From NCBI GenBank assembly GCA_024276125.1, contig JAJRXT010000015.1:1-64000 (forward strand): 64,000 nucleotides of DNA. Direction: 5' to 3'. The number at the start of each line of letters is the position of its first letter. The stretch's first letter is position 1. The notes below the pieces were generated by a model. The model saw only the letters and a list, made by a program, of their open reading frames with translations. It had not been told where the DNA came from and did not search any database. The DNA comes from a bacterium. GTDB lineage: Bacteria; SZUA-182; SZUA-191; JAJRXT01. Made by a program: the position numbers and the translations under genes. Below, one piece after another: positions 1 through 62,138 of the stretch.

Positions 1-337
1 AGGTATACTGGATCAAATGACAGATCCTTGGGGGATCAAGGTTTCTAATGTAGAAATAAAGCATGTGGACTTACCTGAAAACATGAAGCGCGCTATGGCG
101 CGTGAGGCGGAAGCCGAAAGATAGCGGCGGGCTAAAATTATTAGCGCTGAGGGCGAATTTCAATCTGCTGAAAAGCTGGTTCAGGCCTCTGAAATGATGG
201 AAAAACATCCGATATCGGTTCAACTGCGCTATTTGGAAACATTGGTTAAAATAGGCGCCGATCAGAACACCACTACGTTATTTCCAATTCCGATGGACTT
301 ATTAAAGATTTTTTCGGGTAAAAATAAAGATGAATGA
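1..337 (+). pseudogene. Slipin/SPFH (stomatin-like) protein, C-terminal part, truncated by window edge, with in-frame TAG at 122-124
   Basis: Translation [69 protein letters not shown]...LLKIFSGKNKDE*; matches the conserved slipin DPWGIKV..VEIK.V.LP..M.RAMA.EAEAERE(R/K)RAK motif on both sides of the stop. Confidence 0.85.
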
Positions 338-5000: not shown

Positions 5001-8000
5001 GATGTAAGCCAAGTTTATATTGAAGGCGGCGCCCTGGTTAAGGAATTAAAGCATAATATTATCGGGCGCTGCTTTCTTGGGGTTAATCTGGATCCCGGCC
5101 GGGTTGAACATAGCGGTACATTGCCGGTTCAGGGCGCCTTAGGCGCCAATGAAGTGCAACTGGCGGCTTCTGCGGCTTCGGGTAATGATGATGCTTATGC
5201 AGGTATGATGTTGGTATTGCCGGGCAGCGGTATGGGGTTGCCGGTAGAGGCTATGATTACAGCTTATAATAGCTCAACTAAAGTAGCTACTATAGAATAT
5301 CCAACGTGGGTTACTCCGCCTGCGGCGGGGCAATTATATGAAATACGTTCTCGGCGCGGCAGGATTGATGCTAATGCGGTGGATTATAATCTGGTCTATG
5401 CCTGGAGTAATGATGCTGATACCGACGGAGTGTCCGACGGCTATTTGCTAAACGGTGCATTGCCCGGAGAGAATACGTATTATTACGGGGAATATTATGG
5501 CGCTACCCCCCTGCCGTTTTTTGAAGACCCGAATCATATTTATCCTTCTACGCAGGATTATCATATATACTCTAATTCTTCGGTGTATACTTACACTTAC
5601 AAAAATGGCGCTTTATGTGCCGATACAGACGGGCAGCGTTTGGGACCGGACTGTAATTTTACCTATCCGCCGGCAGATTATCAGTATTTTTGGCCGAGGG
5701 TAGTTCCTTTTCCCGTTTCTCCGCCGGCAGATACGGCGGCGCCTGCCGTAGTGTCGATTAATCCGCCGGATGGCGCAGCGTCCGCCTCGCCATATACGCC
5801 GGTCAGCATTTATTTACAAGATCAAGGTATCGGCAGCGCCGCTAATTCGGGTTTAGCGCTGGATGGGATTGTCCGCAACACTATAAAGGTGCAGGTAAAT
5901 TCTCCGGTGTATAGCGGGCAATACTCTTATGGCGATGCCGAGCTTATCATTTTACCTGATTATAATAATGCCAGCCAGTATAAGATATTGTTTGCGCCGG
6001 CGGCTCTTGAGGGTTTTGGAATTGGTACGGTGGATATTGGTCTTTATGCGGCAGACGCACAGGGGAATATTTTTAGTAATACTATGACACCATATTCCTT
6101 TATTACCTCAAGCGGGGATGTAACGGCTCCGCAGTTGGCGGATTTCTTTCCCAAGCCGGATGATGTTTGTGCATATTTACAGCCTGCTGATATTCCCATA
6201 GATTTTCGTCTAACAGACGGGGCGGCCGGAGTTAATATATACAGCGCCACGCTGAATGTAGCTACCTATGATATGGGCGGCGGCTTTATTGAGACCTTAT
6301 ATAATGGTTCTATTTATTCATATGCGGTAATTAGTAATACTCCATTATATAGTAATTATAGTGTTTTTTATCATCCCGAATGTGATTATGATAATGATGT
6401 GATGGTGAACGCCACTATTACAGCCTATGATTATGAAAACAATCATTTGTCTACTACCCGTAAATTCTGTATTGCCGCAGACAGTACCCCGCCGGAGGAG
6501 GTTTCTTATCTAAAAGCCAAGGTTTCGGCGGCCGGTGTGGTGTCTTTAACCTGGGATGCCAGCATAGACGCGCCGGGCGGCGCGTCTGCTGGTTGTGTAG
6601 TTGGCGGGGATCTGGCCTATTATGAACTTTTGGTCTGCGGCGGCGGTCTGGAGGACAGTCTGCTGTGTACGTTTGGTGACTGGGTTTTATGGAAGACTAA
6701 TATCAGCAATTTGGCCACTGCGGTTACGGTTTATGATTTGCCGGAGGGTAAGTATAAATTCAGATTGCGCGGGGTGGATTCTGCCGGTAATAAGAGTATG
6801 GGCGCTTTGGCTAATAGAAATGTTTTTTATCCCTATGGAGAGCCCTTAACCCTTTATGAGGGGTTTTTCGATGAGGATTTTAACGGCGTAAGCGATAATT
6901 TTTACGCTGCATATTTGAATAAATGGCTGCGTTTCGGCGGTATTAATTGTAATAACTCTATTGGCAGTAAATTGAGCGTATCCGGTGAGAATGGCGAGTA
7001 TCTGGCGCACAATTTTTCTGCCGGTGATTTGCAATACAGCGCTGATTTGACTTTAGATGCCGGCGAGGCCGGTTATCTTTTAATTCGCAAATTATACGGT
7101 AGCGAGGTGGGAACTACGGGCTATGCGGCTTTTGTGGATTTAGCCAACGCCCGTATTGGTATATATGATGTAGGCGACGCTACTGTGGTGGCGCAAGCGC
7201 CTATTAGCGCGGTTGTCGGCGCTTATAATTTAAAGCTTACTACGCCGGGCAATAAAATCCGCTTGGTTGTTACTGGTGCGGCTAGCGCTACTACTGAATA
7301 TATTGGGGCAATCCATTATCTTTACGGGCAAGCGGGTATTTGGCAGCCTGATTCTGCGAGCGGGCTTACTGTATCTAATGTGGAATTTGATAATATTGTA
7401 ATTAAGGATTATCAAGACCGCTGGCAAGCTGCCGGTTCTTGGAATACTACTGGTTATGCCGGTGGCGGCTATGCCTTAAGGCCGTATTCAGATAATCAGG
7501 ATATTGTAGTGGGTGATTTTGTACTTCCAGATGATTTTATTTTGCAGGCTGATGTTAAGCTTAAGGCGGAGGGGACCCAGGGCGCTATATTGTTTCAAAA
7601 AAAAGATGAACAATCGGTGGTCTATAGTGGTGGTTATGCGGCTTGTATAGAAAGCAATGGCGCGACTGATACGGTTTCTTTCTATCGGATAGATAATGGA
7701 GCGCTTAGCGTTTTGGCTGACACCACTGTCCATACAATTGATATCAACACCAATTATCACCTTAAATTGTTGGTATCAGGCGGTCAGTTTGCCCTTTATG
7801 CTTCTTCTGATACAGCTAAACCGTATAATTATGAGCGCTGGCTGGTAGGCAGCGATTCCGGCGCCCCGTTTACTGGCGGTTATGCCGGTTTTTGGCAGCA
7901 GACCGGAAAGGGCTATGATGTGAGCTATGATAATTTTTCCTTTGGTACGACTGAACCATTTAAATTTCCCGGTCTTGGCGTTGCTCATGCTGTAACCAAT

Positions 8001-11000
8001 TCAGTGATTACTACTGAGCAGTATGCCAATATAAATAGCGCTATAAACAGCGCCGCCGCAGATGGGGGTTATGTATATTTTGATGGCTGTAATCCCGGGG
8101 TTACGGTTTATAACATCGGCAAGAATGTTATTAGAATGAAACCGGGCGTCAGCTTTTTAGGTGAGGGGCCTGATTGCACCGTGATTCGCGGAAGCGGGCC
8201 GGTGATACTTTATACGGCTGATGATGTGGTTGTAGAAGGTATAAAAATAGAAGGGGCGAATAAAAAACAAATAGGGGTTTATTGTACCAATGTATCGCCC
8301 ATGCTGATTGACTGTAAGGTTACAAATTGTGCTGATGCAATTAGAATTGGCGGTTCTGAGGGTACTTCGCCTACGATAACCGGCTGTGATATCTACAATA
8401 ATGCGCGTATGGGGATTGGTAACAACCTGTTTTCATCAGCCTGGATTTTTGATAATCGTATCGGGCTAAACGGCTTAAACGGAGTCGGCGCCAGAGACAA
8501 TGCCGCTCCCCGGATTGAAGATAATTTGATCGGTTCACATTTTGCAGATTTGGAACGCGATAACAGTTTGGGCAGTCAAGGCGGCTTAGCGGATAATCAA
8601 GTAAAATTGGATAGCGGGGCTAGTCCTACTGATGATTATTATAAAAATATGGTGCTTATCTTAACCAGCGGTTTGGGCAAACCTAAGATGGTGCGTATTA
8701 CCGGTTATGCGGGCGCCACTCAAATCTGTACAGTATCGCCCGGGTATGCGGTACATCCGCTTATGGGAGATAACTATAAGATTATGAGATGGTTTCCCGG
8801 TAATGGTTATGTGGGTATTGCTCTTCGGGGCAATTCCATGGCGCGTGTTGTACGCAATCGGGTGACTAAAAACTTTGGACCGGGTATTGGTTCTCGCGAT
8901 GATGCGACGCCTAGTATTGAGCGGAATATAGTTTATGAAAATGCTCAGCACGGTATAGGAAATTATGCCCGCAGTAATGCCAGTGTGGTGGGTAATATAG
9001 TTTACGGAAATGCCAATGTAGGTATTGGAATGCACTCTAATTCTCAGGCTGAGGTTATTGGCAATACTGTATACAGTAATGGCGGTGATGCCGGAATCGG
9101 CGGTGGCAGCAGGGCTTCCGGGCTTATTCGCGACAATATTGTCTATAACAGCGAAAATGCGGGAATAGGCTTTCATGCCAGCCGCGGCGATTTTGAAATA
9201 TACAATAATTATGTGTTTGCCAATGCCTTTAATGGTATTGCGATTGATAATGCTATCGGCAGTTTTACGGTTCAGGGTAATATGGTTGTTTCCAATGGTT
9301 TTAGCAGCGGGCTTGACCAGGGCGGGGGAATTGCCCTGCGGGATTTTAATGGAACGCTTAAGCTGACTGATAACCGGTTGCATTCGAATAATCATGCCGG
9401 TATTTCTTTGATACGCGTTAATAACGTTACTCTGAGCAATCTGACAGCTACTCATAATGGGCGAGGAATGACAATGCCGAGCGTTATGATGTGTGCCGGA
9501 GTGCGTATTAATGATTGTAATGGAATAATCGTTGAGAATTGTACCATAAAGGATAACCATGGATTAGGTATTGCTGTGGCGGATTTGACAGCCGGCAATC
9601 AAGTTACTATCCGTAACAACATTATTGGCGGGGCATCTGGAGCGGGTAATACTACCGGTGGTATTGGAATCGGTATAAATGAAGCGGCAAGTAATGCCGG
9701 TACAGTGTATATCAACGGTAATAATATTATTAGTTCCAATGGCGGCTCTGCTATGGGAATTGATATGGCCGGCGGTATCGCTGTTTATAATTTTTCGGGT
9801 ACAGCGAATATTTACGGTAACCAAATATTAGAAAATACCGGCACCCAGAGCGCTGCCGGCGGTATTGGTATCAGAGATTTGATGGGCGGTACGGTAAACA
9901 TAGGGGTTCAGGCTGCTAATATCATTAGAGGCAATATTGGTGATATGGCCGGCGGTATCGGCGGAACCGGAGGGACGGGCGCTGTTAATATCAACCAAAA
10001 TGAGATTACTGATTCTGTCCGTAATGGTATTGGTTTTATCAGGACCGATGTAGCGTTACAGATTAATAATAACCAGATTTATAAAAACACTTTGACTGGA
10101 GTAGGTTTAAGAGAGATAACCGGCCAGATTAAGCTTACTGATAATACAATTTCATCAAATGGCAATGGTTCAACATCTGTACCTATTGCAGCGGGTGTGG
10201 CGATTAATGAGTGTGCTGATGTAAGTATTACGAGCAGTAATACTATTCGCAATAATAATGGTTACGGGATAAGTATGGCCGATTTAACCAGCGGTGATAC
10301 TGTGCAGATTAGCGGTAATACTATCGGCGGCGCTCTTGGCGCAGGGAACCTGCTTGGCGGAATCGGGGTTAGCGTGGATGATGCTTTGACAAATCAGGGG
10401 ACTATCTCTATAAGCGCAAACACCATAAGCTATAATCAGGCGACCGATCGGGCGGCGGGTATCGGTCTTAAAAAATTTGCCGGTACGGCTGATATAAGTA
10501 ATAATACCGTAGCCTATAATGTAACTACCATTAATACCTTAATTACCAGCGGCATACCAGGCGGTATCGGCGTATTAGAGCCGCAGGATATTGCAAGTAG
10601 TACCAGTGTTACCATAAACAATAACATCATAAATTCCAATCAAACCGACCCTAGCTCTACGGTTGGCGGTATCGGGGTAATTGGCGCCTCCGCCTTGGCT
10701 AAAGGAACTCTAACCACTTTGGTTATTACCAGCAACCGCATTTCCAACCATTATCATCCAGTACAAGGGAAAAAGGCTAGCGGAATCGGTATTAGGTGGA
10801 TCGATTTTACCGATGCAAGTCTTACAATTAGAAACAATAAAAAAGATAATATAGGTATACAAAATAATGTTTATGGTATATCGCTACTGGAAAATGCAGG
10901 CGGGGCTACTGCCAGTGTACAGATTTCTGATAACAGGGTGTATAGTCATCTAAAAGATGGAATAAGGCTGAAAAATAACCTGTTTGATTTTAATATCAGT

Positions 11001-14000
11001 AAAAATATTTTGGATAATGATACGGTAATCGGTTCCGGTGGTGATTACGGCATAAGTATGCTGGGTCAAAGCGCAACTTATGTGGCCAGCGCTACCTTAC
11101 ATAGTAATACCATTAAAAATTTCGGCTTATCCGGTATCAGGACATATGATTATCCCAAAGGCTCGGGTTTGGCGGTTACCTCTAATCTGATAAGCACCAA
11201 TGGCCGGCGGGATAAGAAGTATCGTAAAGGTGAGCCATTGGATGACGGGACGACCTGTAATTCGCTGTATTCATGTTCGGCGGCCTCCGGTATTCAGGCC
11301 AAAGCAAGCTACTTTGATACAGTTACAGATAACACTATCCGCTATAACCTATATGCCGGTATTGCCCTGGATAATACTGACGGCTGGATTGGTACAGTGG
11401 GGGCGGGTAATGAGATTTCCTATAATGGTAATTCAACCGGCAATGAAAAGTGTCCGCCTGTAGCTATTCCCGGCGGAGACGGCGGGATTGCCGTCTATGG
11501 TTTAGACGCAGGCAAAAAGCTGGTTATTTCAGGTAATTCTCTTCACGATAATTTTGGAGATAATGTGAATGTTAATAATGCGTTAGGCAGCATTATCTAT
11601 GACGGCACTACAATCCCGGGCGGCGGCAGTTCAGGAGAAGGTCATGGTATTGTTCGTGATTGCACCCAGCCCGGCAGTTGTAATGAAACAATTGATTGTA
11701 TTGCGACACCCGGTTATCAAGCACAGGTTGTCGGGAATAAGGGGTACGGTGTTTTGATTTTTGGCGAGCATGCTGAAAATCTGATAATTCAAAACTGCGA
11801 TATTTATAGTAACGGGCGCAATGGAGAATTCATCGGATGCGATGGCAAGCCGATAGGCGGCGGTGTCGCTCTTGCAATGGGGGCTGATCCCACTATTCGC
11901 AATAATAATATTTACAATAACGGTATTTCCGCTCAGCCGGAAGGCTCCGGCGGTAATTCGGGGATTAACTTAAATAATGCCGGCAGTGTAAAAATCTACA
12001 GGAATGAAATCTATAATAATGCTAATGACGGCATCAGCATTATGGATAGCTCTACTCCGGTAATTGGCGGGGATGACGCGACTTTCAGTAACAGAATTTA
12101 TGCTAACTGGCGTTTCGGCGTGGGAATCAGCGGCTTTGAGACGGAGCCGTCGGTAAGTATAAAATATAATCATATCTACTCTAATGTCCGAGTGGGATTA
12201 AGCGCTAGAAATACCAATGTGTTTGAAGTTATTGGTAATAAAATCTACGACAATGGTAGGGGATATCCTAAAGTGCCGGGTACCACTACTCCTGATGCGG
12301 GTATTAGGATTAATGCGGGTTATTTGAATATAATTAAAGACAATATCATTTGTACTAATGATGGTTTCGGGGTTAGTTTGGCTGAACATTCAGATGGTGA
12401 TACAACTATTATTAGCAACAATATTATTGGCAGGGCTGATATATTGGGGAACAATCATGGCAATAGCTTTGCCGGAATGGGAGTTGGTAAAATCAGCTTC
12501 AGCCGTTTAGAAGGCGGTATACCGGCGGGCGCTTTAGGCTATTGGAAGTTTGAGGAAGGAGTCGGTACCCTTACTTATGACGAAACCGTTGCCGAAAATA
12601 ATGGCATTGTGTATGGCGCTAGTTGGATAGCATCGGGTAAATCAGGAAATGCTTTGTCCTATGACGGCACGGATGATTATGCTGAAATAGCCGGACTTAT
12701 ACCTGGCGCTATCAGGGGTTCTTACTATGACGGGACAAATTTTGATACCTTTGCTGATTCTGATATATTTACCGGGATAAATTTTCCGGCTGATGAGGAT
12801 TCATGGCTTTGGAGTGACGGTGATAATAGCTGGGTCTGGAGCGGTGATCCGCAGGATTCATGGATTCCAACTTCTGTCGGCCCGGACTATTTCTCAATGC
12901 GTTTTGATGGTTATGTTAAAGCGGATGCCGATGGAACATACACATTTTATTCAACCGCAGATGACGGTCAAAAATTGTGGGTTGATAATCAATTGGTATT
13001 CAGTGATTGGACTATTCACAGCGGAATGCAGGAGGTATCTGGCAGTATAGCATTAAGCGCCGGCTGGCATTCATTAAGGTTGGAATATTATCGCGATTCA
13101 TTTTTGGTGCAGGAGGCAACTGCCCCGCCCGGCGTAATTTTGGAATATGAGAATGTAGCGCTGTTTTCCAGGCAAGTTATTCCAGCCGATCATTTTGGTT
13201 TTAACAGCGGTACATTAATGTTGGAGGCGCCGGCTATGACGGCGGAGGCCTGGATTTATCCCACGGCCTATCCCGCGAGTGATACGGCTATTTTAAATAA
13301 ATGGCTTAATAATAATGTACTCGACGGAGAAGATGCCTGTAAGCAATATATGCTTTATTTTATGAGTAACGGGCATGTCAGGTGGTATTCTTCGGACGAC
13401 TGTTCCGGTACGCATCAGGGAAATGTGGAAAGCACGGAAGCGCTTGCCCTAAATACCTGGAATCATGTGGTAGCGGTTACAGATGGAAGTAAACTGCGTT
13501 TATACATAAATGCCAGCAATGGAATTGAGAATAACAGTATAGACTGGCCGTATAGTATTAATGGGGTCAGTACCGGTACCTTACAGATTGGTAAGTATGA
13601 TAATAAATTCTTCTCAGGCGTTATTGACGAGGTTGTTTTATATGATCGAGCTTTATCCAGTTCAGAGGTTCAGGAGCGTTTTCATTATACCGGCTTATTA
13701 TGGATGGCGGCGGCTAATGATGCCTCAGGCGGCGGCCCTGGCGTTCAGGCAGGCGATCAGGTCGTTCTTAAGTTCAGCGGGCAGACTAACGGTCGGCAGA
13801 TAACAGCAGCCAATATAGATACGGTTTTGGCTCTAAGTGACGGTCATACTTGGCTGGATGCCGATGGAACTATTAGCAGCGCGCTGTGGAGCGCTCAGTC
13901 TTATCCCAATGATACGCTTACCATTACCCTAAGCGATACCAACGGTGCGCCTACTATATCCGTTGGCGATACTATTATTATGGACGGCAGTATTAAAGAT

Positions 14001-17000
14001 GTAGACGACAGGCCGGTTAAGAATTATCAGGCGATTACTAAAAGCTTTGGTATGCCTGATGGTTTGGTCTCCCTGTGGTATTTTGACGAGGGAGGCGGTC
14101 TTACTGCTTTTGACAGCGCAGATAATAATGATGGGAATATCAATGGAGCCAATTGGACTGATGAGACGGTTTCCGGTTATGCGCTGGAGTTTGACGGAAT
14201 TAGCGATAATGTGCAAGTTGCCGATTCTGCCAGTCTGGATTTAGCTAATCAAATAACTATTGAAGGCTGGATAAAGCCGTTAAATTTTAATGGCGCCGAT
14301 CATTTGCTGAAAAAAGGGACTGTTTATCGTCTTTCTTTAGCAAGCGGGGTTCCTACGGGTTGTGTCTCTATTTCAGGCGGTGAAAAATGTGTCAGCGGTG
14401 CAACCATAAATACAAATAAATGGACGCACCTTGCACTAACCTATGATGGCGCTTTGTTAAGTATTTATCAGGATGGAGCTGTATATACCACTACCCAAAC
14501 TGGTTTAATAGATGTTGATGCCAATCCTTTAAAAATTGGCGAGTCATTTGAAGGAATAATTGATGAGACAGCTGTTTATAGCCGGGCATTAACGACGGCT
14601 GAAGTAACCGCTATATATAATTTGCACAAAGATGTGCAAGTGGGCGGTACATATTATATTAAACATAATACGATAAGCTATAATGGCGGCGGAGCATCTT
14701 TTGATGTGACCGGCGGGATTGGTCTAAACAGCTTTGCCGGTACGGTAGAGATTTTAAATAATACAATAGTATCTAATACTGATAGCGGAGTTGGCGCCGG
14801 CGGTATAGGTATCTTTGAATTAAGCGGCGGCGCCGTAAATATTTTCAGTAATGACTTTAGACATAATACAGGTGATACCGCAGGCGCTATTGGCGCTTCA
14901 AATGGAATTGGAAATTTATCCATTATAGATAATACAATAGCTAGTTCCGGTATATTTACTCCGTGTCAGTTGGACCCGCCTGTAGGTTTATCGGTTCTGT
15001 ATACATATACTTGTAATATATTGGTCAGGAATCAAGGTATTGGTTTAGTTGATATGTCGTTTGAGGATACTGTGATAATCAGCAGTAACTATATTTATGA
15101 CAACAGCGGAAGCGGTATTGGGATAAAGAACACTCGGGCGCAAAGTGATATCAGCTTAGGCAGTGTGCGGATTTATTCTAACAAACTGCATAACAATCAA
15201 ACCGGAGCTATAGGAGTGGTAGCGCCTAATTCTGATTTTGATGATAGAGTGGAAATAATAAAAAATATAATCAGCAGTAATTGGGCGGTGGGCAATAGGG
15301 TTCAATATGGGATTCCGACAGTAAATAATGTTGCCGGTATTGGGACATATTTTAGAGGATATTTGACTATTGCGAATAATGACCTTCACTCAAATACATC
15401 TACTCGAGGCAGAGGGCCTGTGGCTATTGGTATTGGTAAGCTTCACGGACCATTGACATTGATTGAGCAAAACAATATATATCGAAATTATTCCCCCATA
15501 GGCCTAGGTTCGTATACAATGAATCCTGACAGTTTTCCGGGTAAAAGTATTTTTATTGGTATAACTGATGGAGGGGAAGGCCCGATTCTTATACGTAATA
15601 ACAACATACACAACCATGGTTATCCTTGTGGCTGTTGGCCTTTGCCTCGAGGCCTGGTAGCCCTAGAAGTCGGCGGTGTGTTGTTGGTTGATGATCCTGA
15701 TACTCAAATATATATAGAAAATAATACTCTTTATTCAAATCAGTATGGAATGAGCGATACCCAATTAATCGGTTTTCTGCCGGAGGTTCATATTCGCAAT
15801 AATATTATTTGGGACAAGATACTTGGCGGCGGCAGCGGTAAGGGGCGTGCTTTTGATAGTTATAATTCATTTGATTTTAATGATTTTCTGCAAGTTGGCG
15901 GCGATTATTATAATGCCTCCACCTGGGCTGGCCTGCATGGGCCAACCCCCTTATATAATGTTGGGGTATGGCCTGATTTTGTAGATGAGGCAAATATGGA
16001 TTCACATCTACAAAGCACCTCCACGCTAATAAATTTTACAGGAAATGAATTTGTGTATTCTAATGTATATGACTATGATAATAATCCTGCTCCATTGGTG
16101 AATTACTATGATGTGGGTTCTGATGAGACGTATTTTTCTTCAATTAAACGGGCGATGGCTTATGATGCTTCAGGCGGCGGCGACGGCTTGCAGCCCGGAG
16201 ATCAGGTAATAATTGATTTTGGCGGCGAGACTAACGGCGCTGTGTTAGGTGATCTGGATACAGCGCTTGCATTAGATAATGGACATATCTGGAGTAATAG
16301 TAGTATCTATACCTGGAGTCAAAAAAAATATCCAAATGACACTTTAACGATAACCCTGGCGGGAGGGGCTACTATAGAACCGGGTGATATGATTACGCCT
16401 GATGGCAGTATTTTGAATGAATACGGGAATGGGATTAAGGCTGCCAGGAGATTGGGCGGTAATTTTGGGGCTATTAATGGCGCTGTTGCCTGGTGGAAAT
16501 TAGATGAAGATACTGGTAGTGCAATTGCGGTAGACAGCGTTAATAATGTTAATTATGGAAGGTGTGCCGGCGTTAAAGATCGCTGGAGTGTTTTGGGTAA
16601 ATATGATAATGCCGTGAGATTTGATGGAGATAATGATTATATATGGATACCGTATGGAATCTTAAATGGCGCCAAGCAGGGAACAATAGAAGGCTGGCTA
16701 AAGCCGGAAGCAAGTCCTGATTTAAGAACATTTGTATCTTTAGAAGATGACAATGGTAATGGCTTAAGAATACTTTTGGGCGCTGACGAGCGTATCAGGG
16801 TTGAGGCGACTACAACAACAAACCAGTGGATATTCAGCTCTACCGCTTATGTGCGGGAGGCGGCATGGTCGCATGTCGCATTAACCTGGGATGATACAAG
16901 CATACGATTGTATATAAATGGGCAGCCGGAGGTCCATGTTTCTGCAACTGGGTTTGCTCTGGGTAAAAATGAAGGCTGGAGCGAGTTAACCAGATACAGA

Positions 17001-17501
17001 AAACGCTTGGGTAATGTTTCGGGAACAAATTATTATTATCAGGGTCTTATGGATGATGTAGTCTTTTACGAAGAGGTTTTGTCTCCTGCTGAGATAGCAA
17101 CTCATTATAAAGTTTTGTTTAAGAGCGCCAGAGCAAATGACGCATCAAGTTTAGGAGACGGATTCCAAGCAGGGGATCAAGTTGTTATTAAATTTGACGG
17201 GGAGACCAATGGCCCTGTTATTGATAATAGTAACATTAATAGTGTGCTTATTCTGGATAAACCTGGGCGCACCTGGGTACTGCAAAGTACAGGGGTTTGG
17301 TCATCCACACATCCGAATAATCCCAATGATGTATTAATTCTTACTTTAGACGATACGTCTGTTGTTTCTGTTGGGGATATAGTAACGTTGGACGGTATAA
17401 CTATTAAAGACAAGCTGGGTAATAGTATAATCGGTTCGGTAAATATTACCGGGAATTTTGGTTTATCCAGAAATTATATGGCTTATTGGAGGTTTGATTA
17501 A
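2091..17501 (+). CDS. Giant secreted protein, N-terminal part: signal peptide, right-handed beta-helix repeats, LamG-like domains, PA14 domain, recurring ~110-aa module; ends at in-frame TAA
   Basis: GTG at 2091 preceded by GGAGGGGG; signal peptide ILSLALGVFMAMALSYSPAWA; many NxIxxN / GIGI..NNxI beta-helix rungs; PA14-like ADGTYTFYSTADDGQKLWVDNQLVFSDW; LamG-like IEGWIKP...WTHLALTYDG...IYQDG. Confidence 0.9.
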   Translation: MFTWHNLKFRILSLALGVFMAMALSYSPAWAAVYTVCSSGCDYTGLQPAINAALSDGAASTINITEAGVYSGPFKVPYVEAERSYELSIVGNTASRDDVILDNPTASIAPGIPIPAVIATEFNVIGTQSAYGMPLKLKHLTITASELLVNGDMEGAYNGGLASGWSKAGAPVLSEVTYGSLTTAQGAVLKVLSGNKAQGFTGTDASNYIYTTVSGAKLGANRTYTFSVWFRRTAGAGNAKVMAELEFSGIGTTTVLSTSAVNYADMYNQLTYTFITTANPADLKVKLYCDSLSTAAVVDGAAIASPLTAGVFFKGPAGSTDLQGVEDCVVRNIGHVSSQGGNGKYLPATWNDLDDPLGENGDDVHGHGVVIFTGAAPLIVDNDIRQNYDGVSISESVLGSASVQADNPRLWSTGYADQTYWQMKQRIRQNARFGIAVRNGATPYIGNMNYDTKITSFPLDYANDIAGNGYANIAAQDDAAPRIYYNYIQGNFDYLFDLYYMGEQNPSQYGILSREAASAVIVGNKIYDHNRAAVAVRDNAAPLLGDNSTWISWDGDLVNLDVRVNQIYGNNFYASLGDDDARRVFCNHGAFDNIDCAAVASMDGAMPVIRNNYINYNHWAGVGSRDWAAPDVRGNWIENNVIGMSFMSVRDSATAAARIGGSAAGEGNEVYWNQVGIAVRNSGNRENRVLIEGNYVHDNEGVDRGVGIAVNNSYVQITNNDITSNSAASLWPGRKAAIAVFNDSDVLINYNRILNNRGVGLSAIDSAVEVEHNLLADNFPGTIGFNVLLGGIDVGDYGGYLFNGGFEDNEIFTVEKCCYTVAPEWKMAGSIYASENIVQVKEGGSAQEFGEGGPDSSYLYYPAMVSAGQEYYFSGWLTRASGTGTVYLQLSEAAYNNVYTTFAVTSSAWSKVSFTFKAISNDVVIKLYTVGAGAIGLADGFELRRIKPGAIVRKFNHNILAGDVWFDGRYDVSQVYIEGGALVKELKHNIIGRCFLGVNLDPGRVEHSGTLPVQGALGANEVQLAASAASGNDDAYAGMMLVLPGSGMGLPVEAMITAYNSSTKVATIEYPTWVTPPAAGQLYEIRSRRGRIDANAVDYNLVYAWSNDADTDGVSDGYLLNGALPGENTYYYGEYYGATPLPFFEDPNHIYPSTQDYHIYSNSSVYTYTYKNGALCADTDGQRLGPDCNFTYPPADYQYFWPRVVPFPVSPPADTAAPAVVSINPPDGAASASPYTPVSIYLQDQGIGSAANSGLALDGIVRNTIKVQVNSPVYSGQYSYGDAELIILPDYNNASQYKILFAPAALEGFGIGTVDIGLYAADAQGNIFSNTMTPYSFITSSGDVTAPQLADFFPKPDDVCAYLQPADIPIDFRLTDGAAGVNIYSATLNVATYDMGGGFIETLYNGSIYSYAVISNTPLYSNYSVFYHPECDYDNDVMVNATITAYDYENNHLSTTRKFCIAADSTPPEEVSYLKAKVSAAGVVSLTWDASIDAPGGASAGCVVGGDLAYYELLVCGGGLEDSLLCTFGDWVLWKTNISNLATAVTVYDLPEGKYKFRLRGVDSAGNKSMGALANRNVFYPYGEPLTLYEGFFDEDFNGVSDNFYAAYLNKWLRFGGINCNNSIGSKLSVSGENGEYLAHNFSAGDLQYSADLTLDAGEAGYLLIRKLYGSEVGTTGYAAFVDLANARIGIYDVGDATVVAQAPISAVVGAYNLKLTTPGNKIRLVVTGAASATTEYIGAIHYLYGQAGIWQPDSASGLTVSNVEFDNIVIKDYQDRWQAAGSWNTTGYAGGGYALRPYSDNQDIVVGDFVLPDDFILQADVKLKAEGTQGAILFQKKDEQSVVYSGGYAACIESNGATDTVSFYRIDNGALSVLADTTVHTIDINTNYHLKLLVSGGQFALYASSDTAKPYNYERWLVGSDSGAPFTGGYAGFWQQTGKGYDVSYDNFSFGTTEPFKFPGLGVAHAVTNSVITTEQYANINSAINSAAADGGYVYFDGCNPGVTVYNIGKNVIRMKPGVSFLGEGPDCTVIRGSGPVILYTADDVVVEGIKIEGANKKQIGVYCTNVSPMLIDCKVTNCADAIRIGGSEGTSPTITGCDIYNNARMGIGNNLFSSAWIFDNRIGLNGLNGVGARDNAAPRIEDNLIGSHFADLERDNSLGSQGGLADNQVKLDSGASPTDDYYKNMVLILTSGLGKPKMVRITGYAGATQICTVSPGYAVHPLMGDNYKIMRWFPGNGYVGIALRGNSMARVVRNRVTKNFGPGIGSRDDATPSIERNIVYENAQHGIGNYARSNASVVGNIVYGNANVGIGMHSNSQAEVIGNTVYSNGGDAGIGGGSRASGLIRDNIVYNSENAGIGFHASRGDFEIYNNYVFANAFNGIAIDNAIGSFTVQGNMVVSNGFSSGLDQGGGIALRDFNGTLKLTDNRLHSNNHAGISLIRVNNVTLSNLTATHNGRGMTMPSVMMCAGVRINDCNGIIVENCTIKDNHGLGIAVADLTAGNQVTIRNNIIGGASGAGNTTGGIGIGINEAASNAGTVYINGNNIISSNGGSAMGIDMAGGIAVYNFSGTANIYGNQILENTGTQSAAGGIGIRDLMGGTVNIGVQAANIIRGNIGDMAGGIGGTGGTGAVNINQNEITDSVRNGIGFIRTDVALQINNNQIYKNTLTGVGLREITGQIKLTDNTISSNGNGSTSVPIAAGVAINECADVSITSSNTIRNNNGYGISMADLTSGDTVQISGNTIGGALGAGNLLGGIGVSVDDALTNQGTISISANTISYNQATDRAAGIGLKKFAGTADISNNTVAYNVTTINTLITSGIPGGIGVLEPQDIASSTSVTINNNIINSNQTDPSSTVGGIGVIGASALAKGTLTTLVITSNRISNHYHPVQGKKASGIGIRWIDFTDASLTIRNNKKDNIGIQNNVYGISLLENAGGATASVQISDNRVYSHLKDGIRLKNNLFDFNISKNILDNDTVIGSGGDYGISMLGQSATYVASATLHSNTIKNFGLSGIRTYDYPKGSGLAVTSNLISTNGRRDKKYRKGEPLDDGTTCNSLYSCSAASGIQAKASYFDTVTDNTIRYNLYAGIALDNTDGWIGTVGAGNEISYNGNSTGNEKCPPVAIPGGDGGIAVYGLDAGKKLVISGNSLHDNFGDNVNVNNALGSIIYDGTTIPGGGSSGEGHGIVRDCTQPGSCNETIDCIATPGYQAQVVGNKGYGVLIFGEHAENLIIQNCDIYSNGRNGEFIGCDGKPIGGGVALAMGADPTIRNNNIYNNGISAQPEGSGGNSGINLNNAGSVKIYRNEIYNNANDGISIMDSSTPVIGGDDATFSNRIYANWRFGVGISGFETEPSVSIKYNHIYSNVRVGLSARNTNVFEVIGNKIYDNGRGYPKVPGTTTPDAGIRINAGYLNIIKDNIICTNDGFGVSLAEHSDGDTTIISNNIIGRADILGNNHGNSFAGMGVGKISFSRLEGGIPAGALGYWKFEEGVGTLTYDETVAENNGIVYGASWIASGKSGNALSYDGTDDYAEIAGLIPGAIRGSYYDGTNFDTFADSDIFTGINFPADEDSWLWSDGDNSWVWSGDPQDSWIPTSVGPDYFSMRFDGYVKADADGTYTFYSTADDGQKLWVDNQLVFSDWTIHSGMQEVSGSIALSAGWHSLRLEYYRDSFLVQEATAPPGVILEYENVALFSRQVIPADHFGFNSGTLMLEAPAMTAEAWIYPTAYPASDTAILNKWLNNNVLDGEDACKQYMLYFMSNGHVRWYSSDDCSGTHQGNVESTEALALNTWNHVVAVTDGSKLRLYINASNGIENNSIDWPYSINGVSTGTLQIGKYDNKFFSGVIDEVVLYDRALSSSEVQERFHYTGLLWMAAANDASGGGPGVQAGDQVVLKFSGQTNGRQITAANIDTVLALSDGHTWLDADGTISSALWSAQSYPNDTLTITLSDTNGAPTISVGDTIIMDGSIKDVDDRPVKNYQAITKSFGMPDGLVSLWYFDEGGGLTAFDSADNNDGNINGANWTDETVSGYALEFDGISDNVQVADSASLDLANQITIEGWIKPLNFNGADHLLKKGTVYRLSLASGVPTGCVSISGGEKCVSGATINTNKWTHLALTYDGALLSIYQDGAVYTTTQTGLIDVDANPLKIGESFEGIIDETAVYSRALTTAEVTAIYNLHKDVQVGGTYYIKHNTISYNGGGASFDVTGGIGLNSFAGTVEILNNTIVSNTDSGVGAGGIGIFELSGGAVNIFSNDFRHNTGDTAGAIGASNGIGNLSIIDNTIASSGIFTPCQLDPPVGLSVLYTYTCNILVRNQGIGLVDMSFEDTVIISSNYIYDNSGSGIGIKNTRAQSDISLGSVRIYSNKLHNNQTGAIGVVAPNSDFDDRVEIIKNIISSNWAVGNRVQYGIPTVNNVAGIGTYFRGYLTIANNDLHSNTSTRGRGPVAIGIGKLHGPLTLIEQNNIYRNYSPIGLGSYTMNPDSFPGKSIFIGITDGGEGPILIRNNNIHNHGYPCGCWPLPRGLVALEVGGVLLVDDPDTQIYIENNTLYSNQYGMSDTQLIGFLPEVHIRNNIIWDKILGGGSGKGRAFDSYNSFDFNDFLQVGGDYYNASTWAGLHGPTPLYNVGVWPDFVDEANMDSHLQSTSTLINFTGNEFVYSNVYDYDNNPAPLVNYYDVGSDETYFSSIKRAMAYDASGGGDGLQPGDQVIIDFGGETNGAVLGDLDTALALDNGHIWSNSSIYTWSQKKYPNDTLTITLAGGATIEPGDMITPDGSILNEYGNGIKAARRLGGNFGAINGAVAWWKLDEDTGSAIAVDSVNNVNYGRCAGVKDRWSVLGKYDNAVRFDGDNDYIWIPYGILNGAKQGTIEGWLKPEASPDLRTFVSLEDDNGNGLRILLGADERIRVEATTTTNQWIFSSTAYVREAAWSHVALTWDDTSIRLYINGQPEVHVSATGFALGKNEGWSELTRYRKRLGNVSGTNYYYQGLMDDVVFYEEVLSPAEIATHYKVLFKSARANDASSLGDGFQAGDQVVIKFDGETNGPVIDNSNINSVLILDKPGRTWVLQSTGVWSSTHPNNPNDVLILTLDDTSVVSVGDIVTLDGITIKDKLGNSIIGSVNITGNFGLSRNYMAYWRFD

Positions 17502-20500
17502 AATGGCAGTGATCCTATAGCGGGCGACGGGTATGATTTTTATGATGAGCTGGCGGTAAATCATGGATATCGCGGACCTAATCCTGAATTTGCGGATTCT
17601 GAAGACCCTAGTTGGATTGGCGGCAGGCTGGGAGATAGCGCCTTTAGTTTTGATGGCGCTAGTTACAGGGGTGATTTTGCGTATATTCCTCCTTCTGTTG
17701 ATTTAAATTTAACTAATAAGCTTACCATTCAAACCTGGTTTTATGGTAAAACAGCTACTTTCCAAGATTATCCTTATGAACAGCATGGAATTTCAAAAAT
17801 TGGCACTAGTTCAGGTTTTGTGTTTCCATATAGTGATAATAACTGGGAAACATTATCTGTTAAGTTATATATAGAAGGTACCGGTTGGGTTACAAAGACT
17901 GTTAATTACAGCATGGTTGGTGAGTGGCATCATCTTACGATGACTTACGATAATATTTCAACCACGAGTGATAATTTAAGTATCTATATAGATGGTGAGT
18001 TGGCTGATTCATGGGTTCAGACTGGAGAAATAAGGTCTAATACTTTACCGATCTATTTGGGAACAAAATCGACCCCATGTAGTGGTTATGCTAAGCTGAT
18101 ATGTAAGTTACGCGGTTATTTAGATGAGGCAGTAATATATGACAGGGCATTGAGTCCAGAGGATATAAAAAACAGTTATGGAACTTTGCTGGATAGCGCT
18201 GTTGCTTATGATGCTTCTACTCATGGAAACGGGATTCAAACCGGAGATCAGGTGGTTATAAGGTTTAGCGGTGAAACAAATAGTCTTGCGATAGATAACA
18301 GCAATATTGATAGTGTGCTGTTTTTGAGCAATGGTCATAGCTGGCTAGATAGCGGAGGGAACTTGGGAAGCGTTACCTGGAGCAGTATATATACCAATAA
18401 TGATACCTTAACCGTTAATTTAATTGCCAGTAATGGTGTACCTACTGTTGTGCCTAGAGATTTGATTACCTTAAATCAAACGATAGGTTCTAAGATTATC
18501 GATAAAAACAATAATCCGATAATGGATACTGTGGGAATAGAAGGGAGTTTCGGCTTTATTCCTGAATCGGCGGTTATGTATTTGAAACTGGATGAGAACG
18601 GCAATGACCCGTTGACAAATGACGGCTTTGATTTTTATGATGATACTATGAAGAATAATCATGGTTATTTGGGGGTAAATCCGGAAGATAGCCCCTGCAG
18701 GAGTGATCCTGCGTGGGTAGCTGGTCGGGTGGGCACGAGCGCCCTATCGTTTAATCAAAGTGCATATCCTTATAATCATGCGGTAGTGCCTAATTCGGAA
18801 TCACTGAATCTTTCTGATGCAATTACTATTCAAGCATGGATTTCCGGTGAGCCATCGGAATTTTATGGTATACCGATGCAGCAACATGTTGTTTCTAAGG
18901 CTGGCGTTGCCAGTGGTTATGTTTTTCCTTTTAGTACGGATAACTGGCAGAACCTGGGGGCTTATCTTTATTTGGATACTGAAGGCTGGGTGAGGGAGGA
19001 TATAGTATATAATAAAGTTGCTGAATGGCATCATCTTACTATGACTTATGATAGTAATATCAGCAGTAATAATCTTAAAATTTATATGGATGGCGAGTTG
19101 AGCCAATCTTGGAACCATACTGGTAAGATCGTGACTAATAGTCTACCCATAAATCTTGGCGCTAGGCCTGAGGGTTGTACTGGCGATAAAATTGTTTGCA
19201 GGTTTGATGGTATGTTGGATGAAGTAATTATATATAGCCGTGCAATAACTGCCGCTGAGGTGAAAAGTAGTTATGGCAGTTGGCTGGATACTGCTGTTGC
19301 TGAGGATTCATCAGGCAACGGCGACGGCATTCAAGTACAAGATAAGGTGGTTATAAATTTTATTAGTGAGACTAACGGCTTGGCTATTGATAATACTAAT
19401 ATCGATAGTGTGTTGTCATTGAACAATAATCATAGCTGGCTTGATGGTAATGGCCAGATTTATACAACTATTTGGAGCCAAAGAGATTATCCAAATGATA
19501 CATTGACCGTTGTTTTGTCAGATACCAACGGAGCGCCGTCTGTGGCGGTTAGGGATATTATTACGTTGAATCAAACCAGCGGGTTTAAAATAATTGGTAT
19601 GGGTGAACCTATAATGGATTCAGTAGTTATTAATGGAACTTTTGGGGTAGCTTATGCCGGCTTGGTAGGGCATTGGAGACTTGACGAAGGCGGTAATGAC
19701 CCCAATCCCATTGATGGATTTGATTTTTATGATGAAAGCCCTAATAATAATCATGGCTACCTGGGGGAAGCTCCTGGCGGTACAAGGAGCGATCCAGCTT
19801 GGATTGCCGGTAAGGTCGGCAGTCATGCGCTGGATTTTAATGGGATGGACTATCCATTTCATTTTACAAACATACCTGATTCTGACAGCTTGGACCTTAC
19901 GGACAAATTGACTATACAGGCTTGGGTTTATGGCAAGCCCGCTACTTATAAAGGAGTACCGCATGGACAACATGTGATATCTAAAGATGCCGGAAACAGC
20001 GGATACGTATTTCCTTATACTGATGATAACTGGGCAACATTATCCGCACGTCTTTACTTGGAAAATGAAGGCTGGGTCCAAATAAACGTTCCTTACAATA
20101 AACCCAATGAATGGCATCATATGGCGCTGACCTATGATTCTACTGTGGTGGGTACTAAAAACTTAAAAATTTATATTGACGGTGAGCTTGTAAATTCATG
20201 GGAAAAGAATAATCCGGTTGTTCCCAATAGCACGGAGCTTAAATTTGGTATAAGACCGGTTGATTGGACGTGTGGTTATAACTGGCGTTGTACGTTTAAT
20301 GGATCGCTAGATGAAGTGTTTATTTTTAGTAAAGCTCTGTCTGATGCTGAAATTAAAGATTTTTATGGTTCTTCGTTATTAAGCGCTACTGCTTTTGACA
20401 CAGGAATTAATCCAGGCGTTCAAATTGGTGATACTGTAGTTTTTAGTTTTAGCGGCACAACGAATGGATATCCGATTGATAGTTCCAATATTGACAGTGT

Positions 20501-23297
20501 GTTACAGTTAAGCAATAGTCATAGCTGGCTGGACAGTAGCGGTAATATTAGTAGTGTGGTTTGGGATAGTGTGATTAATACTAATGATAGACTTACTGTT
20601 ACTTTGAGTGGTGCAGCCGTAAAAGTGAGTAAAGCTACAATATATTTAGAAGGCGGTAATGTATCGGCAGCAGATGCTAGTAATTATTCAGCTACCTTAA
20701 CCAAAATTCCCAACGATGATCTAAACTTGTTGGGTCTATGGCATATGGATGAGGGTTCGGGGCAGATACAGGATTCTTCGGGGAATAATAATGCTAGCGA
20801 CTATAATACTGCTGCTTGGCAGGGTAATGATGGCGGTAAATGGGATAGTGTTGACCAGCAATTTATTAGTGGTGATCATTTAGGGTTTAGTGGCGCTAAG
20901 AATAAATATGTCGGCATACCGGATTCTTCAAGTCTACATTTTGGGGTTGATAGCTTTGGTGTTGTTTCTTGGTTAAAAGCCACTTCATTTTCTTCATTTG
21001 ATGCACCGGATTATATAAGATGGTTTGCTAAAAGTGGTTATTGCCGCTCTTGGCAGACTAGCCCTGCATGTACTTGGATTGCCGGCCAAATTAATAGTGA
21101 TGGTAGTGTGGAAGTTTGGGGACGTGGATATGCGGATGCGAATTTATTTAGTATTAGAACTCCTCCGGGTGTAATAACTTTAAATGAATGGTACCATGTA
21201 GCAGTAGTATTTGATAGAAATGCTTCCAAGGGATTTATATATGTAAATGGGGTAAACCAGAGTGGCGCCGGCGCTGATATTTCTAATTTAACCGGAAGTT
21301 TGGATGTTTCTGGTAAACCGTTAACCTTGAGCGCTGATTGGGGTGAATTTAGGGGAAATATGGATGAGGCGGCTATTTATAAGGGGGTTTTGTCGGAAGA
21401 AAAGATAAAAGCTTTGTATTACCGCCGCAGGTTTGCCGACCCACAGCCTACTTGGCAGATTGGCGTGCAAGAGTCTTCATTGCTTACCAGTTGGTCGAGC
21501 AGATGGCCGGTTACTATTACAGAAAATACAGGTACAATGTTATTTAGTCATCAAGTAGGTGAAATAGATATTCAGGGCAATAATCCAGCCCAGCCCAATT
21601 ATGTTGATTTCAACGTATTTAATACAGATTGCTCAGATGTTCGATTTACCGATTCTAATGGTTTGACATTCTTGCCGTTCTGGCGGCGCAGTTGGGATAA
21701 TGTAGGTAAAACGGCAAAATTGTGGGTATTAGTGCCTGTTATGGGAAGCAAGGCTATGGTGGCAACAGGTGATATTGTAACTCTTGACGGCAGCATAAAA
21801 GATGTGCTGGGCAGGAGTATGGTTGATTCTGTAATTATCAGCGGGACGTTTGGCAGTCTGGCGCCGTATACTCCGGTGAATGTCTCCCCGCCGGACGGGA
21901 TTTTCGATGTGCCGATAGCGCCGAGTTTGGAGTCATCAGCGTTTTCCGATCCGGATGTTACGGATTTACATCAGGCCTCTGAGTGGCAGATTGCTTCAAA
22001 TGCTGCTTTTACGACGATAGTATATGACAGCGGGGTTACAACCGACTTAGTCAGCCATACCATATCTTCTAGCCTGCTTTATTCAACGCAGTATTATTGG
22101 CGCGTTAGACATCAGGATAATCAGACCTACTGGTCGGATTATTCAGTACCGACTTCATTTACTACTACGGCTTTTGGTATGGCGGCTCACTGGATGTTTG
22201 ATGAGACTATCGGCAGTACGGCTTCTGATGATACTGCCAATAATAATGACGGGGTTTTAATGGGGCAACTTGAGCTAATTGAGGCTTGTGACAATGTTAC
22301 TGGTTGGGATGGAAATTTAGGTAGTCTGAGCTTAAATACAACTACCTATAATCAAGGTACGGGGGCTTTGAATCTGATAAAGACATCCGCCAGCAGCGCT
22401 GATTCCAGATACTGGAAAAATATCGCTACTACCAACAAGATGACCGATAAAATAATCAATATTATGTTGTATATTAAGGATGCTGCGACTTTGGCCAAAA
22501 TACAAAGGGTGCAGATTACGCTGCACGACAGTTATCTTGGCGGTACAGGCGGTTGGGCATGGGAGATTGGCAAGAACATTGATCATGTTGATGTGGTTGA
22601 AGGCTGGCAGGTACTGTCTTTTGATGTTAATAATCCTGATTATACCAGCGGTACGCCTGATCTTAATGCAGTAGGGGCGATTAGATTGGATGTGGATACG
22701 TATAATATTGGCGCTACTTATGCTGCCGGGGATGTAGTTATGGATTCATGGTTTGTTGGTAATTCCAGTTCAGGGCCTAATTGGGTAACTGGTAGGTATA
22801 ATAATGCGCTTAGTTTTAATGGTATCAGCAGCCGTCATAGTGTTCGGGTGGCTAATTCTGATACTTTGAATATACAGGGTGATTTTACAATTGAGGGCTG
22901 GATAAAAACCGCATCTCCATTGGAGGCGGGATATATTTTCTATAAATATGATGATAACTCGCCTTATGGAGGCTATGGGCTGCGTTTGAATGCGGATGGT
23001 ACTTTGAGTGCCAGAATTGGAGCTGCCTGGTATACTTCAAGCCTGACTGTTACGGCAGGTGTATGGACGCATGTCGGGGTGGCTGTGCTGGGGAATACCT
23101 TGACATTTTATGTGAACGCTGTTGCTGATACGCCGGTTGTTGTCTCTCCGGTTGGCAGCTGGGTTGGTAATGCGTATATCGGTTCTGGAGAAGATACTGG
23201 TTTCTTCCATGGAGTAATGGATGAGCTGGCGGTATATGACCGCGGTTTGACGGGAGTGGAAATAACGACCAGGTATAATATGCCGCCTATACCGTAG
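17502..23297 (+). CDS. Continuation of the giant protein in the same frame: tandem LamG units, recurring module, FN3-like segment, final LamG (the ORF track starts it at a GTG at 17820)
   Basis: 2076 and 17820 share a frame; the 17502-17819 interval is open (NGSDPIAGDGYDFYDELAVNHGYRGPNPEF...GTSSGF) and aligns with paralogous units at about 18590 and 19680. Confidence 0.85.
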   Translation, partial: NGSDPIAGDGYDFYDELAVNHGYRGPNPEFADSEDPSWIGGRLGDSAFSFDGASYRGDFAYIPPSVDLNLTNKLTIQTWFYGKTATFQDYPYEQHGISKIGTSSGFVFPYSDNNWETLSVKLYIEGTGWVTKTVNYSMVGEWHHLTMTYDNISTTSDNLSIYIDGELADSWVQTGEIRSNTLPIYLGTKSTPCSGYAKLICKLRGYLDEAVIYDRALSPEDIKNSYGTLLDSAVAYDASTHGNGIQTGDQVVIRFSGETNSLAIDNSNIDSVLFLSNGHSWLDSGGNLGSVTWSSIYTNNDTLTVNLIASNGVPTVVPRDLITLNQTIGSKIIDKNNNPIMDTVGIEGSFGFIPESAVMYLKLDENGNDPLTNDGFDFYDDTMKNNHGYLGVNPEDSPCRSDPAWVAGRVGTSALSFNQSAYPYNHAVVPNSESLNLSDAITIQAWISGEPSEFYGIPMQQHVVSKAGVASGYVFPFSTDNWQNLGAYLYLDTEGWVREDIVYNKVAEWHHLTMTYDSNISSNNLKIYMDGELSQSWNHTGKIVTNSLPINLGARPEGCTGDKIVCRFDGMLDEVIIYSRAITAAEVKSSYGSWLDTAVAEDSSGNGDGIQVQDKVVINFISETNGLAIDNTNIDSVLSLNNNHSWLDGNGQIYTTIWSQRDYPNDTLTVVLSDTNGAPSVAVRDIITLNQTSGFKIIGMGEPIMDSVVINGTFGVAYAGLVGHWRLDEGGNDPNPIDGFDFYDESPNNNHGYLGEAPGGTRSDPAWIAGKVGSHALDFNGMDYPFHFTNIPDSDSLDLTDKLTIQAWVYGKPATYKGVPHGQHVISKDAGNSGYVFPYTDDNWATLSARLYLENEGWVQINVPYNKPNEWHHMALTYDSTVVGTKNLKIYIDGELVNSWEKNNPVVPNSTELKFGIRPVDWTCGYNWRCTFNGSLDEVFIFSKALSDAEIKDFYGSSLLSATAFDTGINPGVQIGDTVVFSFSGTTNGYPIDSSNIDSVLQLSNSHSWLDSSGNISSVVWDSVINTNDRLTVTLSGAAVKVSKATIYLEGGNVSAADASNYSATLTKIPNDDLNLLGLWHMDEGSGQIQDSSGNNNASDYNTAAWQGNDGGKWDSVDQQFISGDHLGFSGAKNKYVGIPDSSSLHFGVDSFGVVSWLKATSFSSFDAPDYIRWFAKSGYCRSWQTSPACTWIAGQINSDGSVEVWGRGYADANLFSIRTPPGVITLNEWYHVAVVFDRNASKGFIYVNGVNQSGAGADISNLTGSLDVSGKPLTLSADWGEFRGNMDEAAIYKGVLSEEKIKALYYRRRFADPQPTWQIGVQESSLLTSWSSRWPVTITENTGTMLFSHQVGEIDIQGNNPAQPNYVDFNVFNTDCSDVRFTDSNGLTFLPFWRRSWDNVGKTAKLWVLVPVMGSKAMVATGDIVTLDGSIKDVLGRSMVDSVIISGTFGSLAPYTPVNVSPPDGIFDVPIAPSLESSAFSDPDVTDLHQASEWQIASNAAFTTIVYDSGVTTDLVSHTISSSLLYSTQYYWRVRHQDNQTYWSDYSVPTSFTTTAFGMAAHWMFDETIGSTASDDTANNNDGVLMGQLELIEACDNVTGWDGNLGSLSLNTTTYNQGTGALNLIKTSASSADSRYWKNIATTNKMTDKIINIMLYIKDAATLAKIQRVQITLHDSYLGGTGGWAWEIGKNIDHVDVVEGWQVLSFDVNNPDYTSGTPDLNAVGAIRLDVDTYNIGATYAAGDVVMDSWFVGNSSSGPNWVTGRYNNALSFNGISSRHSVRVANSDTLNIQGDFTIEGWIKTASPLEAGYIFYKYDDNSPYGGYGLRLNADGTLSARIGAAWYTSSLTVTAGVWTHVGVAVLGNTLTFYVNAVADTPVVVSPVGSWVGNAYIGSGEDTGFFHGVMDELAVYDRGLTGVEITTRYNMPPIP

Positions 23298-23384
23298 GGT
23301 CGAATTTGTTTATAAACTATATTTGGGGTTATTTGACTTTGGATGCTACGGGGGGATTGACGCTCAATATTGTTGACAGATCAG

Positions 23385-23470
23385 CTGTCATTCTGAATGA
23401 AGAAAAGCGGACTGAAGAATCTGCCCACGTATGCGAGTAGATTCTTCAGTCTTCGACCTCAGAATGACAA
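23385..23470. repeat. Repeat family A copy
   Basis: ctgtcattctgaatgaagaaaagcggactgaagaatctgcccacgtatgcgagtagattcttcagtcttcgacctcagaatgacaa. Confidence 0.85.
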
Positions 23471-24028: not shown

Positions 24029-25363
24029 TTACAGACCGATTTCTGCCTGATTACCTACTATTACCAGAACATAGTCATCTGGATGCAGGTATTTGATGGC
24101 GGCTTGGTGGATTTTTTCTTTGGTTACTGTATTTATGTATTTGGGGAATTTTTCCAAATAATCCATTCCCAAGTTATGGTTTTCCATATAGGTTAGATAG
24201 GAGACTATTTTACTGTTAGTATCCAGTTTTAAGGGAAAGTTGCCGGTAATAAAGGCTTTAGCGGCTTGCAGCTCCTCATCTGTAATTGGTTTGTAAATAA
24301 TTTTCTTCATCTCTGCCAAAACAGATTTTACCACCTGTTTAGCGGATTCATTTTTGGTCTGAGCGATTATTTGAAAGCTGCCCGGCTGCCTATTGGCCAT
24401 AAAATAACTGCTGACACTGTAGGCTAAGCCTTGTTCATCTCTTATATTGGTTAATAATCTTGAAGAAAAACCGCCGCCGCCTAAAATATAATTCATAACA
24501 TAGCAGGCGTAATAATCAGGATTATTGCGGGCGATTCCCATGTGTCCCAGCATAACAGTAGCTTGTGTTAGCGGCTTGTCTATAAGCTGTCTGTTTACTC
24601 CCTTAATATCTCGAGCGTTATTTATTTCAGGAAAATCTATGGCTTTAGAGCCCCAGGATGATAAATATTTTTTTATCAGGTCTTTTGCCTCGGTCATAGT
24701 AATATCTCCGCCGATTACCATAACCGCATTATTAGGCCGGTAGTATTTTTGGTAGAAAAATTCTACGCTTTTTTTAGACAAATTGTTAACAGATTCACGA
24801 ACGCCTTCAGTAGGGTGCCAATATGGATGAGAGCCGAAGACTGATTTATAAAAAGCTTTAGCGCTTACCTGCCTGGGATCGTCTTCCTGCTGAATAATAT
24901 CTGCGGTAATCTCTTTTCGTTCTCTGGCTAATTAGTTTTCGGGGAATGTTGGATTAAGCAGAATATCGGACAATATATCAAAACCAACGGAAATATCCTT
25001 TTTTAGTATTTTTAGGTTTAATTGGGCAAAATCCGAACCGGTGGTATTGCTAAGCATTCCGCCTACAAAGTCTATTTCTTGGGAAATTTGTGTAAGGTTA
25101 CGTTTTTTAGTGCCCATACTTAAGCCGTTATTGGTTATATTAGCCAGTCCCTCCATACCGGGGGGATCATATATGGAGCCTGCCTTAAAGCTTAAAGATA
25201 CATTTACCATTGGCAGGGCATGTTTTTCCATAACAATAAGCACCATACCATTATCTAACACCTGACGCTCAGGCCTTAGAGCGGCTTCAAGTGAAAGAGG
25301 GACGGATAATATCAATAATAAAAAACAAATTAAATAAGAGTGTTTATTATGCTTATTTTGCAT
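24029..25363 (-). pseudogene. M16 family peptidase, non-catalytic-type paralog, interrupted by TAA at 24932-24934
   Basis: N-part MQNKHNKH...LLNPTFPEN* continues in the same frame as LARERKEITADIIQQEDDPRQVSAKAFYKSVFGSHPYWHPTEGVRESVNNLSKKSVEFFYQKYYRPNNAVMV; the HxxEH position reads NITNN. Confidence 0.85.
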
Positions 25364-42573: not shown

Positions 42574-43470
42574 ATGTTAGCACAACCATCATCGATCAAT
42601 TCTAATATTATTATAGAACATGAATTAATGAAATTCATTAATATAATAGGGAACATCTTAAACGCAGATGTGTTAACTCTTTTTGGCCCGATTATTGATG
42701 GGATAGATTTAGAGGTGCGCGATGCGTTGGAGTTGTTTGGTAAAAAGGCAAAGAAATTAGTAGTTATTTTGGAGACAGAGGGTGGATATATTGAGACGGT
42801 TCAGCGAATAGTTGATATTTTGCGGAAACATTATACTGAGGTAGATTTTGTTGTTCCAAATTTTGCAATGTCTGCGGGAACAGTTCTTGTTATGTAAGGT
42901 GATTCTATATATATGGATTATTTCTCAGTATTGGGACCAATTGACCCACAGGTAAGCCGACCAGATAGACGGGATTTGATACCTGCGCTTGGTTACTTAG
43001 AAAAATACGATCAATTAATAGAAAAATCAAATGAGGGAAAACTTAATTCAGCCGAGTTACATTATTTAATAGCAAAATTCGATCCAGCGGAGCTTCATAA
43101 GTACGAACATGCCAGAGAACTTTCAATATCACTTTTAGAAGAATGGCTGGCAAAATATAAATTTAAAAATTGGAAAGAAAAACAAACATCAAAAACAAAG
43201 GTAACACACGAAATGCGGCAAGAGAGAGCCAAACAAATAGCAGAAAAGTTAAGTGAAACAAAATTATGGCATTCTCATGGACGCGGTATCTCAATGAATG
43301 TTCTTAAAAAAGTTTTAAATTTGAAGATAGAAGACTTTGAACAAAATAAAGATTTATCGAAGAACATAAAATTATACTATCGGCTATTAAAGGATTTTAT
43401 GGTTAAATTAAATATGTTTGCGGTTCTTCACACAAAAAATGAGCTAAAACCCATAATTTCACATTCTTGA
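42574..43470 (+). pseudogene. SDH-type (serine dehydrogenase proteinase / ClpP-class) protease, interrupted by TAA at 42895-42897
   Basis: VVILETEGGYIETVQRIVDILRKHY...FVVPNFAMSAGTVLVM*GDSIYMDYFSVLGPIDPQV; both halves in frame. Confidence 0.85.
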
Positions 43471-62059: not shown

Positions 62060-62138
62060 TCTGAGGCCGTAGGCCGAAGATTCTCACTCGCATATGTGTG
62101 TAGATTCTTCACTCCGCTTCGTTTCGTTCAGAATGACA
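62052..62138. repeat. Repeat family A copy touching the MNT start
   Basis: gctgtcattctgaggccgtaggccgaagattctcactcgcatatgtgtgtagattcttcactccgcttcgtttcgttcagaatgaca. Confidence 0.85.

Follow-up and report, generated by a model that had tools for sequence, protein, structure and literature searches.

A single in-frame TAA at positions 17499-17501 interrupts a giant gene in the window (the whole stretch of 64,000 nucleotides analysed here, taken from a bacterial draft genome), and we hold it, with a probability of about 0.9, to be a consensus error in one continuous gene rather than a biological split. It is read as an error because a sample of the same genome contains about 50 similar stops, essential genes among their sites, and because a second contig lacks the stop in both of the overlaps where one could be compared.

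The stop would have arisen when the consensus of a short-read metagenome assembly took up a wrong base, a GAA being recorded as TAA. Such a G>T error would be of the kind made by oxidised guanine, and it would have been kept if read depth were so low that a single read could decide a consensus base. For the T at 17499 the causes that we infer are oxidation and low coverage. Features of the window are collected in Table 1.

Table 1. Features of the window, with strand and the residue or evidence at each
Feature	Coordinates	Strand	Remarks
Contig-end overlap with start of contig C27	1..341		339/341 identical; one mismatch is window position 122
TAG in stomatin-type gene	122..124	+	Glu in contig C27 and in same-family relative
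Giant gene	2091..23297	+	7,068 codons including the stop position; open frame except for one TAA; Pfam
In-frame TAA of giant gene	17499..17501	+	Every other LamG copy found has Glu; G>T consensus error most likely
Mechanical ORF after the stop, not a separate gene	17820..23297	+	GTG inside LamG, without Shine-Dalgarno
TAA in M16 peptidase	24932..24934	-	Glu in three relatives
TAA in serine-protease-like (SDH/ClpP-like) gene	42895..42897	+	Ser in two relatives
TAA in PAS/GAF sensor gene	53909..53911	+	In-frame stop
TAA in LeuC-type aconitase gene	62703..62705	-	Lys or Gln in relatives; substitution class ambiguous

Extent and domains of the giant gene

Upstream of the TAA, positions 2076 to 17498 form an open stretch of 5,141 codons. 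The frame is open again from 17502 to 23294 (1,931 codons) and closes with a TAG at 23295-23297, the TAA being the sole stop that interrupts an otherwise open frame of 2076-23297. A preliminary description of this DNA had reported one TAA dividing an ORF of about 7,070 codons and had taken 2091-23297 for a single gene apart from that stop. Both statements agree with what we find: the stop is present, 7,068 codons are counted over that interval, and everything lies in one frame behind a credible start. This best start is a GTG at 2091 with GGAGAGG immediately 5′, and the N-terminus that follows from it, judged by eye, resembles a signal peptide (MFTWHNLKFRILSLALGVFMAMALSYSPAWA). The frame is one gene, since no sensible start is found past the stop and the first one available cuts into a LamG domain.

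In a Pfam search the upstream part matched right-handed beta-helix repeats (PF13229, PF05048), PA14 (PF07691) and Laminin_G_3 (PF13385), and the downstream part matched LamG throughout (PF13385, E=3.3e-85). The gene therefore carries PF13385 on both sides of the stop, and its length, supposing the stop to be erroneous, would be 21.2 kb. As the preliminary description had also noted, the frame stays open for 5.8 kb past the stop; with LamG domains all along it, this is not a matter of chance. The protein, of about 7,067 residues, would combine a beta-helix part with a chain of lectin-like LamG domains and is probably an exported, adhesin-like surface protein; no C-terminal anchor was seen in it. 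A search of window positions 1-24000 for tandem DNA repeats that might have caused a misassembly found none.

The residue at the stop

The stop belongs to the first strand of a LamG copy, where the codon immediately before it encodes an invariant Asp. Its position is occupied by Glu in five of the five other LamG copies that were aligned, and likewise in all seven found by pattern (at 12543, 14076, 16494, 18582, 19674, 20739 and 22188), which bears out the earlier observation that the stop sits at a conserved Glu of the internal paralogues. The two nearest LamG copies share 46% and 44% identity with the broken one. The single G>T change proposed earlier is still the simplest origin for the stop: with Glu expected here, the original codon would have been GAA, turned into TAA by a change of G to T.

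Interior stops across the genome

A sample of 1.35 Mb of the same draft genome was surveyed, in which stops were scored for coding character on both sides. Ninety-nine candidate interior stops were found, and 50 of these have no start codon within nine codons downstream, an approximate count, with some gene boundaries still among its entries and some genuine interior stops missed. The 17499 stop, which had been singled out as a special event, is thus one of about 50 candidates in 1.35 Mb, and those that can be checked have a G:C>T:A signature in common. The candidates lie in rpoC, dnaB, ftsZ, murE, lon, clpX (two stops in one gene), a PilB-type ATPase and an MsbA-type exporter, among others; these names come from reading the translations, and PDB matches back four of them.

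Orthologues found in eight relatives lack those stops that were searched. A search with ABC_tran met a stop in two of the 21 matches from the present genome and in none of the matches listed for the eight relatives. Two control genomes (G002 and G003) together gave 2 candidates in 185 kb, against about 50 in 1.35 Mb here, a rate contrast that is weak with so small a control; the essential genes that are hit make the stronger point. At the sampled rate, error would place about 1.0 interior stops in 7,074 codons, or 0.5 if only half of the candidates are real, and one is observed.

A second giant LamG gene lies on another contig (C26:14837-34828, 4,667 + 1,995 codons) and is cut once, by a TAG at a LamG Glu. 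A same-family relative (G001) has a few possible interior stops of its own (L065, L066 and C250:27748-28026) and may share the sequencing problem.

Within the window, beyond the stops of Table 1, three genes are broken by the loss of one base in a homopolymer: a formate dehydrogenase-like gene (33196-33199), the PAS/GAF sensor (55102-55108) and a gene of the isocitrate/isopropylmalate dehydrogenase type (59670-59675). These breaks fit a poor consensus; oxidation does not explain them. Two further observations concern the same stretch. The closest records to its pyruvate phosphate dikinase (39517-42180) are archaeal, from Methanosarcinales/ANME-2 (67-68%), with Omnitrophota at 60-62%; gene transfer is a possible explanation. 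Dispersed elements some 90 bases long and 85-96% identical occur on many contigs and in the window at 506-628, 23366-23469 and 62053-62138; in appearance they resemble small mobile or REP-type repeats.

Substitution class at the stops

The residue that relatives carry could be read for 18 stops. Twelve are Glu or Gly, which require G>T, and another three are Ser, with TCA turned into a stop by C>A; for LeuC, FtsZ and a molybdopterin oxidoreductase the class is ambiguous. Disagreements among relatives were settled in favour of the residue that, in the closest of them, is a single change away from the stop. The Lon stop is counted as Glu on this basis, with Asp in ten relatives and Glu in two. 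G>T or C>A fits 15 of the 18 stops, against 25.3% expected under a uniform spectrum with the codon use of this genome (p=4e-7). Four further stops replace Glu (RpoC, an NtrC-type gene and methionine aminopeptidase) or Gly (glycogen synthase), but they were chosen because their families were recognised and are not an unbiased addition; for methionine aminopeptidase the best match has Glu and the second match Leu.

Contig-end overlaps as a second copy

Many contig ends in this assembly overlap exactly by 141 bases, the trace expected of a de Bruijn assembly at k=141. Five contig pairs overlap by 220-429 bases and contain mismatches, so that a short stretch is present in two versions. Two interior stops fall inside these overlaps. 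At window position 122, in the same stomatin-type gene, the window has T (TAG) and contig C27 has G (GAG). At the start of contig C19, which overlaps C62 over 374 bases, the stop at C19:132 is a TGA in a glycogen synthase, and its T is G in C62, which reads GGA (Gly). Both stops are therefore contradicted by the other contig, with T against G each time (2/2). Position 17499 itself is covered by one contig and lies outside the contig-end overlaps.

The mismatched overlaps hold 10 mismatches in 1,730 bases, a rate that overstates the genome-wide one, overlapping contig ends being spots where the assembler stumbled. Seven of the mismatches are G:C/T:A, two are other transversions and one is a transition. 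Differences between strains are expected to be mostly transitions. With seven of ten in the one class and a single transition, the pattern is unlike ordinary strain variation.

Alternative explanations

The stop might be a recent nonsense mutation or a strain polymorphism, with a truncated giant protein in part or all of the population. We consider this improbable, even though giant surface genes bear loss better than essential genes do and 17499 has no second contig over it. Stops of this class are also present in rpoC, dnaB, ftsZ and murE, genes that a cell cannot do without; the two stops that can be checked are contradicted by another contig; G:C/T:A makes up most of the mismatches in the overlaps, with a single transition among the ten; and the number of stops in the giant ORF is what error alone predicts. 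A living mutator was also considered as a source of the changes and rejected, since stops in rpoC or dnaB would not persist in it.

Less probable still is a reading in which the DNA truly carries the stops and translation passes them by inserting an amino acid, mostly Glu, through a changed code, a suppressor tRNA or some other mechanism yet unseen; both giant genes would then be functional, along with dozens of essential genes. In the window, TAA at a Glu position does account for most in-frame stops, and the genes affected include essential ones. However, no tRNA with a stop anticodon is present among the 43 tRNAs found (the genome is 94% complete and one could be missing), and both ordinary Glu tRNAs are there. 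All three stop codons (TAA, TAG and TGA) are involved, and they stand in place of Glu, Gly and Ser, a combination beyond the reach of any one tRNA; TAA and TAG also terminate ordinary genes. Read-through would also not account for overlapping contigs that lack the stop, and it leaves the frameshifts unexplained. The narrower proposal that TAA alone is recoded as Glu was rejected on the TAG and TGA stops of the wider sample, the lack of a suppressor tRNA and the overlaps without the stop.

That two separate genes meet at 17499 is scarcely credible: a GTG, the first start codon past the stop, does stand at 17820, but a protein begun there would lose the first third of its LamG domain (the match begins at position 55 of 151 in the profile), the GTG has no Shine-Dalgarno sequence, no promoter-like site was found on the plus strand between the stop and 17820, the product has no signal peptide by eye, the broken LamG domain aligns with internal paralogues across the stop, and a LamG chain of this kind lies in one frame in G003, a genome of the same class. 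That frame (C32:4835-45277) runs uninterrupted for 13,481 codons with LamG copies. The preliminary description had named a separate downstream promoter, ribosome-binding site and signal peptide as grounds for giving up the single gene; for the 17820 start, none of the three was found.

Consequences for the draft genome

Taking the stop at 17499 as a consensus error, the survey suggests a false stop roughly every 27-50 kb in this draft genome, so that gene counts, pseudogene calls and the lengths of giant genes taken from it are unreliable. The longest genes would be affected worst: at the sampled rate the chance that a 20 kb gene appears broken is about 40-60%. Checks of contig overlaps, and of the substitution class behind interior stops, work without raw reads and could be used to flag similar genomes.

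Comparison with known systems

Damage of guanine to 8-oxoguanine gives G>T (C>A) errors. The same substitution class is seen here at the stops and in the contig overlaps, and it suggests oxidised guanine as their source.

Low-quality assemblies with low coverage give false internal stops, according to the abstract of Cooley and Wright (2024, PMC11017572). The present case is like the false pseudogenes of that abstract in having internal stops in real genes, raised in number genome-wide, with low coverage and poor assembly documented there as the cause. It differs in its G:C>T:A signature, none being described in the abstract of that paper.

ORFs of more than 20 kb are reported in Omnitrophota, some with laminin_G_3, and are presumed to serve cell-surface adhesion (PMC10066038). 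The gene described here appears similar in having an ORF of more than 20 kb with LamG domains and a presumed role in surface adhesion. It differs in its large beta-helix part. DnaB of the present genome is 42-46% identical to those of three Omnitrophota genomes, which is no more than suggestive of a place in that phylum. A giant adhesin-like gene is a known kind of gene, and false stops from poor assemblies are a documented problem.
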